Origin: a virus | Strand: one strand, 5' to 3' | DNA: 58,368 nt | IMG/VR virus record: IMGVR_UViG_3300049259_000040 | Coordinates: 1 to 58,368 of that record | In this document: in pieces, positions 41,477 through 53,439 of the stretch | Layout: every line of letters starts with the position of its first letter | Position numbering within the stretch: the stretch's first letter is position 1 | Notes under the pieces: generated by a model | Database searches by the model: none | What the model saw: only the letters and a program-made list of their open reading frames with translations | What the model was told of the DNA's origin: nothing | Translations under genes and position numbers: made by a program

Positions 41477-42532
41477 TCAACCCGTTCTACCGTCTTTCTG
41501 TCGCATAGTTGCGACACCGCTCGATGCCTTCAGTCGCGGCAGCGCGTTCGCGGCTTCGTGCAGGTGGTCGCTTCGCTTCGAAACGTTGGCGTAAACAGAT
41601 TCGAGCATCTTCACGCTGTTGCCCATCATTTTGGCCAGCGTGAGGATCGGCACTCCAGCGCGTGCGAGTGCTGTGGCGTAGCTTCCGCGCAGGTCGTTGA
41701 CGCTGATGTCGTCGTCGAGCCCAGCGCGCTTTGCTGCCCGCTTCAACGTCTTGTCGATGTTCGGCTTGTGCTTCGGCGCGAACCCGCACCAGCCCGAAGC
41801 TCGTAGCGGCAGAAGTTCGGAGAACAGCTCGTCCGGGATCGGCACCCAGCGCTTCGAGCCTTTGGTCTTCGTGCCGTTCACGAAGACGTAGCGGCCTTCC
41901 CAATCCACCTCGGTGATCTTCCACGGCTCGCTCGCTCGCAAGCCGAGCTGCAGATACGCCTGGAAGTACAGCTTCAGGTGAGTCGGGATGGCGAGCAGCA
42001 GCGTGCGCTGGTCGTCAGCCTCGATCACACGTTGCGGCTTGTGCGTGATTTCGCCGAGGTCGGGGAACTTCGGCGGCGTCATTCCCACTGCCTTGAAAGC
42101 TTGCCCGAGGCAGTTCAGCTCTCGGTGCGTCGTCCATGCCGTCTTGGTCTTGCGGCTCTCGATGCAGAACGCTCGCACCGCGTCTTCGTCGATGTCGGCG
42201 AGCTGCTTGTCGGCGCCGAAGTGAACGACGAGTGTGGCGCTGCGATACATGATGTGGTCGTGCGTTGACTGCGACTTGCCGGCTAGCTCGGCCGCCGCGG
42301 AGAGCGCTTTGAGCGCTTGTTTGAGTGTTTTGCTTGGGCGCGCTGCAGCTTCGCCTCGAGTCGCGAAGCTACGTTCGATATCTCGCGCGATTCCTTCTGC
42401 GGTCTGTCGGGATTTTGCTGTGCCGTCGTCTCTGACGCCTGTCGACTTGGCGACTCGCCGCCGTTGGGTGCCATCCCAGAAGTGAACCCAGCATTGCCAG
42501 ACATCTGATTTTTGCCGTCTGAAGAGCTCCAT
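41477..42532 (-). CDS. int: Tyrosine recombinase integrase
   Basis: A 351-residue integrase that would insert and excise the prophage. N-terminal part with VWQCWVHFWDGTQRRRVAKS fits an arm-binding domain, residues 70-165 a core-binding domain. Catalytic residues visible: R199 in LGLRASEP, K224 in TKTKGSK, R282 in VNDLRGSY, nucleophile Y314 in ESVYANV. Two usual His positions are replaced: Asn279 where box II normally has His, and Asn305 in MMGNSVK where His or Trp is usual, nine residues before Tyr. Start with AAAGGGG site. Its first 250 bases overlap the excisionase-like frame. Active enzyme likely but chemistry at these sites deserves testing. Confidence 0.85.
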   Translation of the reverse strand: MELFRRQKSDVWQCWVHFWDGTQRRRVAKSTGVRDDGTAKSRQTAEGIARDIERSFATRGEAAARPSKTLKQALKALSAAAELAGKSQSTHDHIMYRSATLVVHFGADKQLADIDEDAVRAFCIESRKTKTAWTTHRELNCLGQAFKAVGMTPPKFPDLGEITHKPQRVIEADDQRTLLLAIPTHLKLYFQAYLQLGLRASEPWKITEVDWEGRYVFVNGTKTKGSKRWVPIPDELFSELLPLRASGWCGFAPKHKPNIDKTLKRAAKRAGLDDDISVNDLRGSYATALARAGVPILTLAKMMGNSVKMLESVYANVSKRSDHLHEAANALPRLKASSGVATMRQKDGRTG

Positions 42533-44086: not shown

Positions 44087-44248
44087 TCACTCATCGGACA
44101 ATCCCCATGCGGGATTCGACTCGTTCGGGTCATAGATCACCTCACCAGTTGATTGTGCGTACACAGTTCCGTCGCTCGTCCTGACCAGCCGTGTGTCGTG
44201 CTCGGCGTCGTACAGCGCCTGCAGCTGGGCTGCGATGTCAGGCGCTTT
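44087..44248 (-). CDS. Open frame without a normal start, joined to the Sak4-like gene
   Basis: A 53-codon frame with protein-like composition (YDAEHDTRLVRTSDGTVYAQ) ending TGA at 44087. It has no ATG, and GTG occurs only late (CTG codons are present earlier). The ATPase gene upstream ends ATG-AAA-AGC-GCC-TGA in a different frame at 44238-44248. A +1 shift at AAAA would fuse the ATPase to this frame (MK to APDIAAQ). It may be a frameshifted C-terminal extension, a CTG-started gene, or the result of a homopolymer error. Confidence 0.4.
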   Translation of the reverse strand, partial: KAPDIAAQLQALYDAEHDTRLVRTSDGTVYAQSTGEVIYDPNESNPAWGLSDE

Positions 44249-45299
44249 TCATCTGCGCTGGGTGCGTCTCCTCGAAGACTTCGAGCAGTGCTTTGCGGGC
44301 GTGCTTGATTGCTTCCTGGCACGCGTACCGCACAAACGATGCGTCACTCTTGTTTGGGTCTAGGCTGCCCATCCGCGCTTCACGGTCGTCGATGAGCATG
44401 TGCAGCACGTCGGCCGGCGCTTCCGCGATTGGCGTTCCCGACCATCGACCACCGCCGTACTCGAAGCTCTTTGGAATCTTCGAGTAGTCGGGCTGACGAC
44501 GCTTGGGCTCTTCCGGAGGCGCGACGTCCTTTGGCTGCGTTTGCGGCGCAGCTGCTGCCGCGGGCTGTGCCGATGGCTCGGTCGACGCCATCTCTGCGCC
44601 GCTCTCGTGGAAGTCTCTGACCGTCTTGGCGAAGTGGTCCAGCTCGTTGACGCTGACGTAGTCCTGCTTGATCGAGTGGATGCGCGACTTGGTCACGTTG
44701 TACGCGTGGTCTTCGAGCCGCAGCTCGCCGTACACGGTGAAGATGTACTCCATGCCCGCGCGCTGGATCGGCTTCATGCCCTTGCGCACCGGGACCTGGA
44801 CCTTCCTTCCGCCCGGCTTGGTCTGCTCCTCGAGCACGTACTCTTGATGCGACTGCAGCGTCACCACGATGTGTGAGCTGCACTGCGTGATGGCGTTCGT
44901 CAGCTTGTTCTGCAGCGGCGTCACCGCGCCCCAGCCATTGGTGAAGGCGTTGTTGCCCTTGAGCTTGTCGACGGTCTCCAGCGCGCCGCCTTCTCCAGCC
45001 CATGCGTGCGAAAGCGAGTCGATGACGATCACGTCGTACTTCTCGCGCTCCGCCAGTGCGATAGCGTCCAGGTAGTTCTGGATCGAGAAGTTGTCGAGGT
45101 TGAGCGTGTCGAAGTGCAGGTCGTTGAGTCCGGCGTACAGCGATGCGCTGCTGTTCTCCGTGTCGACGACTGCGATGCGCTGGCCGAGCGCCCGCGCTAT
45201 CTCCAGCGCCCATAAAGTCTTCCCGGAACCCGACGGACCGGCTAGGGCGATGCGCGCTTTGGTCTTGGTGCGCGTCGCCGGCTTGAATGCGAAGCCCAT
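44238..45299 (-). CDS. Sak4-like recombination ATPase
   Basis: A 353-residue P-loop ATPase related to RecA-core phage proteins of the Sak4/AAA_24 group, which work with single-strand-binding protein in homologous recombination. Walker A GPSGSGKT (21-28), Walker B YDVIVIDSLSHAW (about 90-102), a sensor-like TLQSHQEYVL near 155, and RRP-x-Y in the C-terminal extension after a Pro/Ala-rich linker with AQPAAAAAPQTQ (about 245-256). No RecA L2 loop seen, in keeping with the group. Upstream of a short frame discussed separately. Confidence 0.75.
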   Translation of the reverse strand: MGFAFKPATRTKTKARIALAGPSGSGKTLWALEIARALGQRIAVVDTENSSASLYAGLNDLHFDTLNLDNFSIQNYLDAIALAEREKYDVIVIDSLSHAWAGEGGALETVDKLKGNNAFTNGWGAVTPLQNKLTNAITQCSSHIVVTLQSHQEYVLEEQTKPGGRKVQVPVRKGMKPIQRAGMEYIFTVYGELRLEDHAYNVTKSRIHSIKQDYVSVNELDHFAKTVRDFHESGAEMASTEPSAQPAAAAAPQTQPKDVAPPEEPKRRQPDYSKIPKSFEYGGGRWSGTPIAEAPADVLHMLIDDREARMGSLDPNKSDASFVRYACQEAIKHARKALLEVFEETHPAQMKSA

Positions 45300-48268: not shown

Positions 48269-48640
48269 TCACTCCGCCCAGCACGCGCTGATGCGTGGCA
48301 GGCCGTTGTGCTCCAATGCCTCGTCAAACCCTTCGCGCACGAAGGGCAGGGCTCTTGCTGTCGTCTCCTCGTTGCCAGGGATGAGCCAGATGAGATCGGC
48401 GTCGGTGACCACGTCGTAGCTGTCGTCTGCGAGCTCGCACGCGGCCCTCCATTGCTCGTAGGCGCGTTCGCCTAGCTCACGGGCCTTGCGCTGTTCGGCG
48501 AGCGTTAGAGGCGGTAGGATGCGAACGTGGGAAGAATGACTATGGAGAGGACCCGATGATTCGTGCACCGGGTCCTCTCCACTTCCCCGTCCATCACCTC
48601 TCGGTGCTCCTGTCGCGATGACGGCTGCTTGCGTTGTCAT
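48269..48640 (-). CDS. Hypothetical protein
   Basis: A 123-residue protein with a low-complexity Gly/Ser/His-rich start and a helical folded C-terminal half (LAEQRKARELGERAYEQWRA ... ICH-free, ending SACWAE). ATGA overlap with the HNH gene. Function unknown. Confidence 0.5.
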   Translation of the reverse strand: MTTQAAVIATGAPRGDGRGSGEDPVHESSGPLHSHSSHVRILPPLTLAEQRKARELGERAYEQWRAACELADDSYDVVTDADLIWLIPGNEETTARALPFVREGFDEALEHNGLPRISACWAE

Positions 48641-49398
48641 CGCTGAATCTCCTGCGCCCTCGCACTCGGTCGCTTTACCTTAGCCTCAGGTTTTAGGCGG
48701 CGCTGATATTCCATCGCGCACGTTCGGCACACGCGCGAGCCGTGGCGGCTTGGCCGAAAGTAAACGTTCTCTGGCGTGTACTCATGCCCGCGAGCGCAGT
48801 GCGTCTTCTTGGGTTTAGGCCAAGCGTTCTTCCGCCGAGCCGACTCTCGGCTTTTCGTCCGTAGGCACTCAGCACATCTGCGCCTGAGCTTGCCGCGGTC
48901 AGCGCGGAAAATTAGGTTGGATCCAAAGAACGGATGACCTTTCACGCAGTGCGTCCGCAGTGCCGGTCCGCTGTTCCTCGCGTTTTGCTGATGCGTGACA
49001 GCGCGAATGCACCTGAGCGCGACACAGTTCCTATTGCGGCACTCGTGGTCGAGTTCAAGCCCGGCAGGCACGGAACCGTTGGCCAGTTCCCACGCGACGT
49101 GGTGGGCGAACCGTAGGACGTTGTGAGGCTTCCCATTCTTCGAAAAACGGACGTTGCTGTATCCGACGGTGACGACTCCGTACCCAGCTTTGTGCTTTCT
49201 CTTTGATGTCCAAAACACACAGCCGTTCGGCTGTGGTGACGAGTAGCGATCGATTACTTTTCGTAGGTCGTCGTCGGAACGAAGTCTGACGCCAGGCTGA
49301 GTTCCGAACTTCCCAGGGCCACGTAGTGAGGACCAGTGCTCGCCCGGAGCAAGCAATCTCTTCTCGCGATTGAGGACCGAAACGTCGTCGTAAGGCAT
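48637..49398 (-). CDS. HNH homing-type endonuclease with zinc fingers
   Basis: A 253-residue protein. Residues about 95-145 form an HNH domain: RFAHHVAWELANGSVPAGLE, then LDHECRNRNCVALRCIR and HQQNARN, with the DH and second H/N of the metal-binding finger. C-terminal half has two similar Cys blocks, CVKGHPFF...CAEC and CARGHEYTPENVYF...CRTC, which can be zinc-stabilised DNA-binding repeats. Start chosen at AAGGGGTCTCCGAAG-ATG, seventeen residues into the longest frame. Such free-standing HNH genes are often selfish homing elements; it may also be a restriction/packaging nuclease. Confidence 0.7.
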   Translation of the reverse strand: MPYDDVSVLNREKRLLAPGEHWSSLRGPGKFGTQPGVRLRSDDDLRKVIDRYSSPQPNGCVFWTSKRKHKAGYGVVTVGYSNVRFSKNGKPHNVLRFAHHVAWELANGSVPAGLELDHECRNRNCVALRCIRAVTHQQNARNSGPALRTHCVKGHPFFGSNLIFRADRGKLRRRCAECLRTKSRESARRKNAWPKPKKTHCARGHEYTPENVYFRPSRHGSRVCRTCAMEYQRRLKPEAKVKRPSARAQEIQR

Positions 49399-49775
49399 CT
49401 TCGGAGACCCCTTGTAGCTCGAACCCAACTGGGTTGCGACCCAATACATCTGTCACGGACGCATGGAGAGCGCAACCCATCTGTCAGGATTTATTCTGCC
49501 GAACTGGTTCGTTCGGAGCCCAGACGGGTCCTAAGGCAACAAAACCGCCACGTGTGGCTCATAGCCACTACTCTAGGCGGCACGTGTGGTTGCGTTACAC
49601 ACACGTTGCAAAAGCGTCGATCTCATACCTGTGGTCGTAAGCAAGGATGTCATCGTTTGCTCAGAGCTGAGGCAAAGAGGAGCTAATGCGTCATCTCTCC
49701 CTCAATGACGCTGAAACTCTGTGATGTGAAATCCGCTACGCCCCCGCGCGCGGTCTTCTAGTCTACGTGGCTAGG
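49399..49775. other. Intergenic region between HNH and repressor genes
   Basis: A 377-base stretch lacking a plausible gene. It contains the palindrome GTGGCT-CAT-AGCCAC (49554-49568) and two copies of CACGTGTGG (49549-49557, 49581-49589) 32 bases apart, about three helical turns. Possibly an operator cluster for the promoter of the minus-strand HNH operon. No tRNA-like fold found. Confidence 0.4.
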
Positions 49776-51202: not shown

Positions 51203-52135
51203 ATGGATTTCTCGAACGAGAGCTACGTGCGTCTTTACACGCGCGACACGACTACGTGGAAGCGACTCGAGTGGGACGGTCAGAACGTGCTCATGCAGAT
51301 CCTGCGAAAGCTGGATAGGGCGGGTGTTCTCGACCTGGAAGGCATGGACCCGATAGCTGCAGTTGTCATGCACACGGGTGGCCCGACGAAGACCATCGAA
51401 GTCGCATTGGGGCGTCTCGTGTCACTCGGCGTCGTTGTCATAGATGACGACCGACTCATCTTCCCAAAGTTCATCGAAGCGCAAGAAGCGAACAAGACCG
51501 ACAAGCAACGGCAGAAGGAATGCCGCGAGCGCCGCCGTTCTCTTCGAAACCATGACGTCGACAAGCTAGAAGAGTCACAAAACGTGACTAAATGTCACGC
51601 GAGTCACGCGCTCGGTCACACGGTCACAAACGCTGTCACACGCGTCACGCCGGATGTCACTCTTAACTCTGCAGGGCAGTGCAACGCCGAGCGTGTCTCT
51701 AACACTCCGTCACAAATCGTGACTCCCCCCGAAGGGCGGGCACGATTGAAGACCCCCAGCTTTGAAAGGCCGCCAGTCGGGGAGGCGCCTCCAGACCTGC
51801 CACCTCCCGAGCCTCTCCTCGTAGCTCGCATCCGCAAGGAGTACAGCGAGCGCTACCTGCAGAAGTACGCAGCTGCTGCGCCGTCCGACAACTGGGCGGA
51901 GCGGGAGCTTGAGAAGTGGTGCAACCAGTCGTCCGGCCCTCGCGGCTGCACTCCAGCCGAACTCGTCGTCAAGCTGCTTGATGGGTTGTTCGCGACGAAG
52001 AACGCGAACGTGATTCGTCTCAAGCACAAGCTTGGATGCGTCGTGAAGAACCCGCTCGAGTTCCTCGATGGCGTCGAGCCCGACGTCAGGGTCATGCCGT
52101 ACCACCTACGCGACCTCGATGCGGGGATGCGATGA
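51203..52135 (+). CDS. Replication initiator, lambda O-like
   Basis: A 310-residue protein directly before dnaB with ATGA overlap, the order of lambda O and P. Residues 1-110 form a winged-helix-type DNA-binding domain (VRLYTRDTTTWKRLEWDGQN ... VALGRLVSLGVVVIDDDRL). Residues 122-180 are a low-complexity Thr/Val/His-rich linker whose DNA holds the GTCAC iteron array. The C-terminal part (LVARIRKEYSERYLQKYAAA, WAERELEKWCNQ, VKLLDGLF) is helical and may recruit DnaB. It would bind the iterons within its own gene. Confidence 0.7.
   Translation: MDFSNESYVRLYTRDTTTWKRLEWDGQNVLMQILRKLDRAGVLDLEGMDPIAAVVMHTGGPTKTIEVALGRLVSLGVVVIDDDRLIFPKFIEAQEANKTDKQRQKECRERRRSLRNHDVDKLEESQNVTKCHASHALGHTVTNAVTRVTPDVTLNSAGQCNAERVSNTPSQIVTPPEGRARLKTPSFERPPVGEAPPDLPPPEPLLVARIRKEYSERYLQKYAAAAPSDNWAERELEKWCNQSSGPRGCTPAELVVKLLDGLFATKNANVIRLKHKLGCVVKNPLEFLDGVEPDVRVMPYHLRDLDAGMR
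51574..51723 (+). other. Replication origin candidate: phased GTCAC iterons
   Basis: Eleven copies of GTCAC (or its complement GTGAC) in 150 bases: starts at 51574, 51584, 51594, 51603, 51615, 51623, 51635, 51644, 51656, then 51709 and 51719. The first nine are spaced 8-12 bases apart, mean 10.25, that is one helical turn, so all face the same side. They sit in the linker-encoding part of the initiator gene, as the lambda origin lies in gene O. Confidence 0.7.
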
Positions 52136-53439
52136 AGAACGCCCAACCGTTCCCGAGTAACCTCCTGCTCGAACGCAAGGTCATCGAGGGACTGGTCAAC
52201 CTCGAGGCTGACTTCGCCGAAGCGCTGGAGCTCAGCGCTGACTGCTTCTACGACCGCACGCATCAGCGTGTGTTTGAGATCTGCAAAGCGCTGCAGTCGC
52301 AGAAGCGACCTGCAGACCAAGTGCTCGTGCTCGAGCAGCTCGGCGACGACCCGGATGCACGCCCCTTCGTAGCCTCTCTCGGCTTCCCACCGAGTCAGAA
52401 CCTGGGCGCTTGGTGCGAGCAGCTGCGAGCGTTGCGAACGTTGCGCAAGACCATCGAAGCCGGATTGCGACTTGCAGCTCTCGGCTTCGAGTCCGCCGAC
52501 GACCCGAGCGCCTACCTCGACCAAGCGTCGAAGATGTTCGCCGAGGCGCTGAACACTCGGTCGTGCAACGCCCAGATTCAGCCGATGGACTCGATCATGG
52601 GCGAGGTCATGGAGGACCTGCGCTCGAAAGAGGCCAACGCGGCTACGAGGATTCTCTCCACCGGCTTCTTTCAGCTCGACCATGCACTGGGTGGTCTGGA
52701 GCCTGGAAGGGTCTACGTGGTCGCTGGGCGCACCGGGATGGGCAAGTCCGCCCTCGCCAACCAGATAGCCATGCTTGTCTCATCCATGGGACATCGTGTG
52801 CTCGCTTTCAACCTAGAGATGACGCCGAAAGAGGTTGGTCGGCGTATGGTCTCGGTCGCTGCCGGCGTCGACGGTCGCGCTCTGAAGCGAGGCAAGCTCA
52901 GCGAACTCGAAGCCAAGCGAGCCACGCGTTCTGCTGAGAAGATTGCAGGCTTTCCGCTCGAGTATCCGCGCACGACGGACATCACGATCGAGGAGTTGCG
53001 GCGCACAGCGCGCTCGCGCATGTCGGACGGTTTGCGCTTGGTCGTTGTCGACTACCTGCAGCAAGTGAAGACGGCTGAGCATCTAGAGAGCCGCGAGCAA
53101 TCGGTCGCAGCGGTCAGCCGTGGGCTCAAGCAGATGGCGCTGGAGCTGGAGATTCCGGTCATAGCCGTCGCGCAGCTGAATCGCGACTCGGAGAAGCGCG
53201 CGTCGCAGAAGCCAGGTCTTGCTGACCTGCGCGAGTCGGGAGCGATCGAGAACGATGCCGACGTCGTCTGCCTTCTCTATAGGGACGAGTATTACAACCA
53301 GCAGACGAAGGAGCCTGGAACTTGCGACGTCATCGTTGCGAAGAATCGCGACGGTGAGACTGGCGTTAGCAAGATGCTGTTTGAGAAGCAGTTCACGCGC
53401 TTCAAGGACCGAATCACCTCGGAGGCGAGCCATGGATGA
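52132..53439 (+). CDS. dnaB: Replicative DNA helicase (DnaB family)
   Basis: A 435-residue hexameric helicase. N-terminal domain (residues 1-145; NLLLERKVIEGLVNLEADFA) and RecA-like C-terminal domain. Walker A AGRTGMGKSAL (198-208), FNLEMTPKEVGRRMVS, Walker B LVVVDYLQQV (about 303-312), VAAVSRGLKQMALELEIPVI and the AQLNRDSEKR arginine-finger region with DLRESGAIENDAD. Full-length for the family. Start overlaps the initiator stop. No phage polymerase or primase gene was seen, so host Pol III and DnaG would be loaded. Confidence 0.93.
   Translation: MKNAQPFPSNLLLERKVIEGLVNLEADFAEALELSADCFYDRTHQRVFEICKALQSQKRPADQVLVLEQLGDDPDARPFVASLGFPPSQNLGAWCEQLRALRTLRKTIEAGLRLAALGFESADDPSAYLDQASKMFAEALNTRSCNAQIQPMDSIMGEVMEDLRSKEANAATRILSTGFFQLDHALGGLEPGRVYVVAGRTGMGKSALANQIAMLVSSMGHRVLAFNLEMTPKEVGRRMVSVAAGVDGRALKRGKLSELEAKRATRSAEKIAGFPLEYPRTTDITIEELRRTARSRMSDGLRLVVVDYLQQVKTAEHLESREQSVAAVSRGLKQMALELEIPVIAVAQLNRDSEKRASQKPGLADLRESGAIENDADVVCLLYRDEYYNQQTKEPGTCDVIVAKNRDGETGVSKMLFEKQFTRFKDRITSEASHG

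Follow-up and report, generated by a model that had tools for sequence, protein, structure and literature searches.

A helically phased GTCAC array and an adjoining period-5 tract in the linker-coding DNA of a phage initiator gene: a candidate replication origin

Introduction

A few model systems, namely lambda, SPP1 and pSK41, are known to have their replication origin within the initiator gene. Here we describe a candidate origin of this kind in a phage genome, IMG/VR record IMGVR_UViG_3300049259_000040, the 58,368 nt of which are referred to as the window. The genome is complete and circular, since 127 bp are common to both ends. The element under study is an array of the pentamer GTCAC, in either orientation (GTCAC/GTGAC), inside the gene for a 310-aa initiator-like protein (51203–52135, plus strand), recognised from its open reading frame (ORF), a structure model and 67 distinct family members. 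This phage very probably has its replication origin in the DNA that encodes the disordered linker region of its winged-helix initiator. In dozens of phages, most of them uncultured, a single computational signature appears to place the origin within ∼150 bp, and the same placement is suggested for isolated Pseudomonas, Aeromonas and E. coli phages.

The N-terminal domain of pSK41 Rep binds Rep boxes at the centre of its own gene, and its linker is encoded by ori (PMC5703833). Like the RepA_N proteins pSK41/pTZ2162 Rep, which consist of a winged-helix N-terminal domain of ∼120 aa, an ori-encoded linker of ∼80 aa and a helical C-terminal domain (PMC5703833), the window protein has three parts, and its predicted sites lie centrally within the gene, in linker-coding DNA. 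They differ in that pSK41 has four Rep boxes, whereas the window has pentamers one helical turn apart plus a 5-bp tract, and a profile scan of the window protein gave no PF06970 (RepA_N) match at E ≤ 1. No DnaB gene is known to lie beside pSK41 rep. RepA_N membership would also imply that the C-terminal domain binds DnaG primase. In Bacillus phage SPP1, oriL lies inside the initiator gene 38, in a module with the genes for the loader (39) and the DnaB helicase (40) (PMC6316719). In the window a DnaB gene comes directly after the initiator gene, and two relatives (L012 and L075) have a G39P-like gene at that position; the window differs from SPP1 in having one array and no strong AT-rich element.

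An earlier prediction, made from the window sequence alone (hereafter the original prediction), had drawn a parallel with lambda gene O, where repeats also lie inside the initiator gene. The parallel is fair, as the lambda iteron CCCTC-AAAAC-GAGGG and the window dyad GTCAC-AAAAC-GTGAC have the same 5+5+5 layout and spacer, although in layout the window is nearer to pSK41 Rep and SPP1 gene 38. In lambda, the iterons are four inverted repeats spaced at 20–24 bp next to an AT-rich region, whereas the AT rise in the window is only local (44%), and Pfam scans of the window protein and 12 family members gave no Phage_rep_O (PF04492) match. In the basal unwinding system of bacterial oriC, DnaA boxes are directly followed by short-period DnaA-trios (PMC10721633). 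In the window, too, a short-period tract comes immediately after the double-strand sites, but this tract has lag 5 instead of lag 3, and no AAA+ domain was found in the window initiator (P0001) by profile scan. By analogy, we hypothesise that the tract could have a DnaA-trio-like role. No earlier description of such an array was found in the open-access literature, though one may exist elsewhere. The layout with the origin in the initiator gene is already known; the new features are the one-turn pentamer spacing and the 5-bp-period tract, the latter apparently undescribed.

Results and Discussion

Eleven pentamers cluster in the initiator gene

A direct count confirmed the predicted eleven GTCAC/GTGAC pentamers within 150 b, at 51574–51723. 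They start at 51574, 51584(-), 51594, 51603, 51615, 51623, 51635, 51644, 51656, 51709 and 51719(-), with spacings of 10, 10, 9, 12, 8, 12, 9, 12, 53 and 10 bp. The whole window contains 142 copies, the runner-up 150-b stretch holds 3, and no other pentamer reaches this density anywhere in the window. The Poisson expectation is 0.34 per 150 b, giving P(≥11) of ∼1e-13, or ∼7e-9 when corrected for all start positions.

The first and the last pair form inverted dyads, which the original prediction had overlooked. The head dyad GTCACAAAACGTGAC (51574–51588; sequence and dyad statistics) is arranged 5+5+5 as in the lambda iteron and is followed by seven direct GTCAC repeats on the plus strand (51594–51660, starts 51594 to 51656 as listed above) with a mean spacing of 10.3 bp. 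The downstream dyad GTCACAAATCGTGAC occupies 51709–51723, and a comparable one is seen in L002. Across the family, the middle of the dyad is AAAAC or GAAAC in 33/82 occurrences, and the dyad starts upstream of the last direct pair in all 34 of 34 members. An imperfect inverted repeat, AATCGTGACTCCCC / GGGCGGGCACGATT, at 51715–51747 takes in half of the downstream dyad.

The first nine pentamers had been described as helically phased with a mean spacing of 10.25 bp. The mean stands, and the best period is 10.17 with a vector length of 0.88. As 6.7% of random-gap arrays (gaps 8–13 bp) were phased equally well, phasing in the window phage alone is suggestive, and it is the spacings in relatives, given below, that establish it.

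The window pentamers occupy all three reading frames of the initiator gene, and their number, 11, compares with a mean of 5.5 and a maximum of 9 in 300 synonymous-codon shuffles of the same protein. Thus the DNA, and not only the protein, is selected, which favours the original prediction. Selection at the protein level would mean that the VT, SQ and CH residues of the linker matter; the linker is of low complexity and these residues do recur in relatives. The family-wide pentamers, however, use the frames about evenly (157/121/89), a spacing of 10 bp is not a whole number of codons, and the pentamers exceed all 300 synonymous shuffles in 41/61 family members. This explanation is already contradicted and we give it hardly any credence.

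The array is conserved in relatives retrieved without it

Single-sequence searches with P0001 returned nothing from the phage, viral-contig or genome-contig collections. The initiator family surfaced first by a DNA pattern consisting of the dyad and two repeats, which matched 12 viral contigs, every time in the same kind of gene, and then by N-terminal alignment. The DNA encoding the N-terminal domain (aa 1–112; 51203–51538, plus strand) is the conserved part of the family (alignments A1 and A4; models) and was used on its own to retrieve relatives. Alignment A1 comprised N-terminal domains alone and left the linker out, making the retrieval blind to the array. It yielded 47 viral and 2 bacterial-genome loci.

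A dense pentamer array was present in the linker of 44/45 distinct relatives from this array-blind set, with at least five GTCAC/GTGAC in 150 b in 41 and a changed word in 3 more; codon-position shuffles of these relatives gave a mean maximum of 1.3 pentamers per 150 b. Neighbouring pentamers were 10 bp apart in 179/303 cases, 11 bp in 23 and 20–21 bp in 38, and the pooled best period was 10.15–10.2. Judged from these spacings, helical phasing is established by the relatives. The expected conservation is therefore borne out, and the loss in the exception, L059, goes with truncation of the gene: this locus (L059:127-1000) has a 64-codon remnant of the N-terminal domain without an array, and then a different initiator-like gene. 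That second gene (IRTIKPEFF type) carries GGAAGCAC-like repeats and a GGAAA-type tract. From its sequence, L059 looks like a case in which one self-contained origin module was replaced by another.

A second DNA pattern, which used no protein information, retrieved 43 viral contigs, and in 42 of them the array lies within a gene of this family. The remaining contig, L082, was rejected as a family member, having a 10-bp tandem outside any matching initiator ORF. No member of exactly the window's initiator family was detectable in the phage collection. H6 (MT835690) carries no array and matched by chance. From the phylum of the single Myxococcota match, 377 genomes were sampled, which returned the same genome and one remote match. 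In a remote relative from a Myxococcota genome (L098:1500-1990) the frame closes right after the N-terminal domain, yet the 170 b that follow contain 12 GTCAC/GTGAC.

A period-5 tract follows the last repeat

Directly after the last repeat we found a second element that the original prediction had overlooked. A TC junction (51661–51662, plus strand; T 92% and C 98% in 66 members) leads into the tract TTAAC TCTGC AGGGC AGTGC AACGC CGAGC GTGTC (51663–51697, plus strand), the presumed strand-opening site, with a per-locus p of 0.0005 in the window. When the 66 members were aligned at the last repeat, a C recurred every five bases from +7 to +32, its frequency falling from 92% to 61%, and YKWG preceded each C, giving a unit consensus of YKWGC. 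Self-identity of the tract was 0.54, 0.52 and 0.54 at lags 5, 10 and 15 vs. 0.18–0.30 at other lags, and there was no lag-5 peak in the 33 bases past the tract. Since the reading frame of the last repeat varies among members (40/20/6), the tract is not a protein repeat. It lies at a local AT maximum (0.44 vs. ∼0.33). It makes strand choice and opening by non-AAA+ initiators directly testable.

The pentamer word has switched in separate branches

Three of the 44 array carriers have changed most or all repeats to another word, in separate branches: the repeats are GTTAC/GTAAC in L014, mostly GTAAC/GTTAC mixed with GTCAC in L042, and GACAC/GTGTC in L038. In L037 and L052 the direct repeat is GTGAC. 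The word-switched loci are scattered through the tree among GTCAC relatives; many forks of this tree are weak because it is built on only 112 columns. The junction to the tract is kept in switched loci (TC, or CC in L042, then period-5 units). Switches in separate parts of the tree are as expected if one phage-encoded reader changes its specificity, and these natural variants are material for finding the word-reading residues.

The initiator protein

Profile scans gave no protein family match above the cut-off for the 310-aa product; Phage_rep_org_N (PF09681) scored 13.3 bits (E=0.085), below its gathering score of 23.3 bits, so the protein is not a member. An AlphaFold model built with 63 relatives showed a confident winged-helix domain at ∼aa 21–90, a helix bearing an Arg-rich motif at aa 100–121, a disordered linker at aa 122–204 and, modelled with low confidence, a helical C-terminal region. 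The candidate initiator sites correspond to codons 124–174 and thus fall inside the linker-coding DNA. With a winged helix, a disordered linker, a helical C-terminal region and an adjoining DnaB gene, the gene is initiator-like, in keeping with the original prediction.

In structure comparison the RepA_N initiator N-terminal domains 4pql, 4pt7, 5kbj and 4pta ranked among the best matches, at Z 6.8–7.8 over 77–79 aligned aa (6.5–7.1 in a second comparison), level with CRP-type winged helices, and Foldseek returned no match at E ≤ 0.001. The model is no more than suggestive of a winged-helix kinship to RepA_N.

The DNA encoding the Arg-rich basic motif (aa 100–112, DKQRQKECRERRR; 51500–51538, plus strand) specifies the candidate pentamer reader. 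R103 and R108 are invariant in the N-terminal alignments of the family, and several proteins that otherwise differ have an AERxRRxRE-type motif ahead of the array. The alignment columns most tied to word switching are aa 100 (p=0.0025) and aa 107 (p=0.034), both in the basic motif, in an exploratory comparison of 5 switched rows that is uncorrected over 112 columns and not significant once corrected. The sequence comparison suggests that the basic helix reads the word.

Gene neighbourhood

The initiator stop codon overlaps the start of the next gene as ATGA. This gene (52132–53439, plus strand) encodes a DnaB-type replicative helicase (PF03796, E=1.5e-77; phrog_19; sequence). A DnaB homologue lies ≤4.5 kb downstream of the array gene in 31/66 other distinct loci, and a Pfam scan of seven further loci found, directly downstream, the two G39P-like genes mentioned above (PF11417) and an IstB-like ATPase gene in 3. 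Absence of a helicase or loader gene is uninformative, because many loci are incomplete.

In the window, the array stands at the start of the replication operon. Such a position would also suit an autoregulatory or silencing site, where the initiator would restrict transcription by binding the DNA that encodes it while the origin lies elsewhere, and binding within the gene could block elongation. A simple operator, however, needs no link to a helicase-adjacent gene, no one-turn phasing and no period-5 tract, and the analogous in-gene sites that have been studied best are origins; we regard autoregulation as very unlikely to be the explanation.

Phased short repeats are typical of some centromeres too, and a centromere-binding protein was among many weak Foldseek hits, so that the array might be read as a partition site for plasmid-prophage maintenance. 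Against this, the neighbourhood of the array contains no recognised partition ATPase, an integrase is present in the window phage, and the array lies inside an initiator-like gene beside DnaB or a loader, which leaves partition with next to no plausibility. The integrase gene (41477-42532), a Sak4-like annealing protein gene (44241-45299) and an HNH endonuclease gene (48640-49449) are all on the minus strand. The phage is probably temperate and carries a recombination gene of its own to the left of the proposed origin.

The array as a replication origin

Placing the origin in the linker DNA rests on anatomy and evolution, that is, on the array, its phasing, the tract, conservation, the link to one gene family, word switching and the helicase/loader neighbourhood. 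Initiator molecules would bind the GTCAC words via the N-terminal winged-helix and basic-helix domain, occupying the dyad first and then the phased direct repeats along one helix face. The result may be an uninterrupted filament or wrap whose end coincides exactly with the last repeat, adjoining the tract with its 5-bp rhythm, and this assembly could help to melt the tract or hold its single strand. The tract probably guides strand opening, and the C-terminal region would help to bring in the DnaB-type helicase from the next gene. Binding, melting, helicase loading and initiation at this site are what we infer from the sequence.

The checks named in the original prediction mostly came out in its favour, but several observations weigh against this placement. 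GC skew had been named as a check, and the cumulative skew of the window indeed reaches its minimum at 50.7 kb, a distance of 873 bp from the array, which supports the origin weakly. The minimum coincides with a change in gene direction, however, and skew is confounded as origin evidence for that reason; moreover, the minimum lies within 2.5 kb of the array in just 3/12 relatives. Being confounded in the window and inconsistent in relatives, GC skew was rejected as proof of the origin, which it does not refute either. There is no strong AT-rich unwinding element at the window array, and the structural matches to RepA_N (Z 7–8) are no better than those to generic winged helices, being tied with CRP-type ones. 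Finally, GTCAC arrays also occur in proteins with other N-terminal domains, so that something other than the winged helix may read the word.

GTCAC arrays beyond the family

At least 120 viral contigs contain four GTCAC spaced by exactly 10 bp. The 117 that were located, classed at E ≤ 1e-3 in a small set, comprise 57 in a second initiator family, 17 that score against the window's family, 21 in other ORFs, some of them clearly not initiators, and 22 in no ORF. The second family takes in isolated Pseudomonas, Aeromonas and E. coli phages. The occurrence of 10-bp GTCAC steps in several protein families and outside ORFs would fit an array that is read by a host or other phage protein, e.g., a nucleoid or replication factor, instead of the product of the surrounding gene. 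Such a reader is very unlikely in view of the lineage-specific word switching within one family, the loss of the array with gene truncation in L059, and the Arg-rich motif that several other families share just before the array.

The A3 family ('Primosomal protein I / replication protein O') resembles the window's family in its 10-bp GTCAC arrays in the linker, with an Arg-rich helix before and a tract after them. Profile similarity between the two is weak (E=6e-4, probability 29%), the N-terminal sequence is another one, and the tract is purine-rich and AGATAC/AGAAG-like, not YKWGC. A tentative generalisation, which may well prove wrong, is that in non-AAA+ initiators the array and tract act as a sequence-programmed strand opener: the Arg-rich basic helix would read one 5-bp word per turn on double-stranded DNA, and the assembly would then move onto the tract, read in 5-nt single-strand units like DnaA-trios but with another step. 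The same logic would operate with interchangeable words (GTCAC, GTTAC, GACAC, perhaps AACGC) and tracts (YKWGC, perhaps AGATAC) in the linker-coding DNA of several phage initiator families.

The 'Primosomal protein I/replication protein O' genes of L141 (1379-2278), L142, L143 and L149 have linker GTCAC at 10-bp steps, followed by AGATAA/AGATAC-like period-6 purine tracts. In L145, and partly in L144 and L147, AACGC recurs at 10-bp steps in place of GTCAC. Arrays of 4–5 GTCAC at 10-bp steps outside ORFs of ≥100 aa were seen in L171, L173, L190, L200 and L240, after a conserved GTCTTTTT.

A C-run/G-run hairpin such as CCCCCTTACCCCCTTCGGGGG lies ≤150 b past the array in 12/66 loci of the window's family (among them L027, L048, L055 and L064), compared with 0/66 in a control stretch downstream. 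It is also present in L141, and Pseudomonas phage P7869 has a comparable element past its array.
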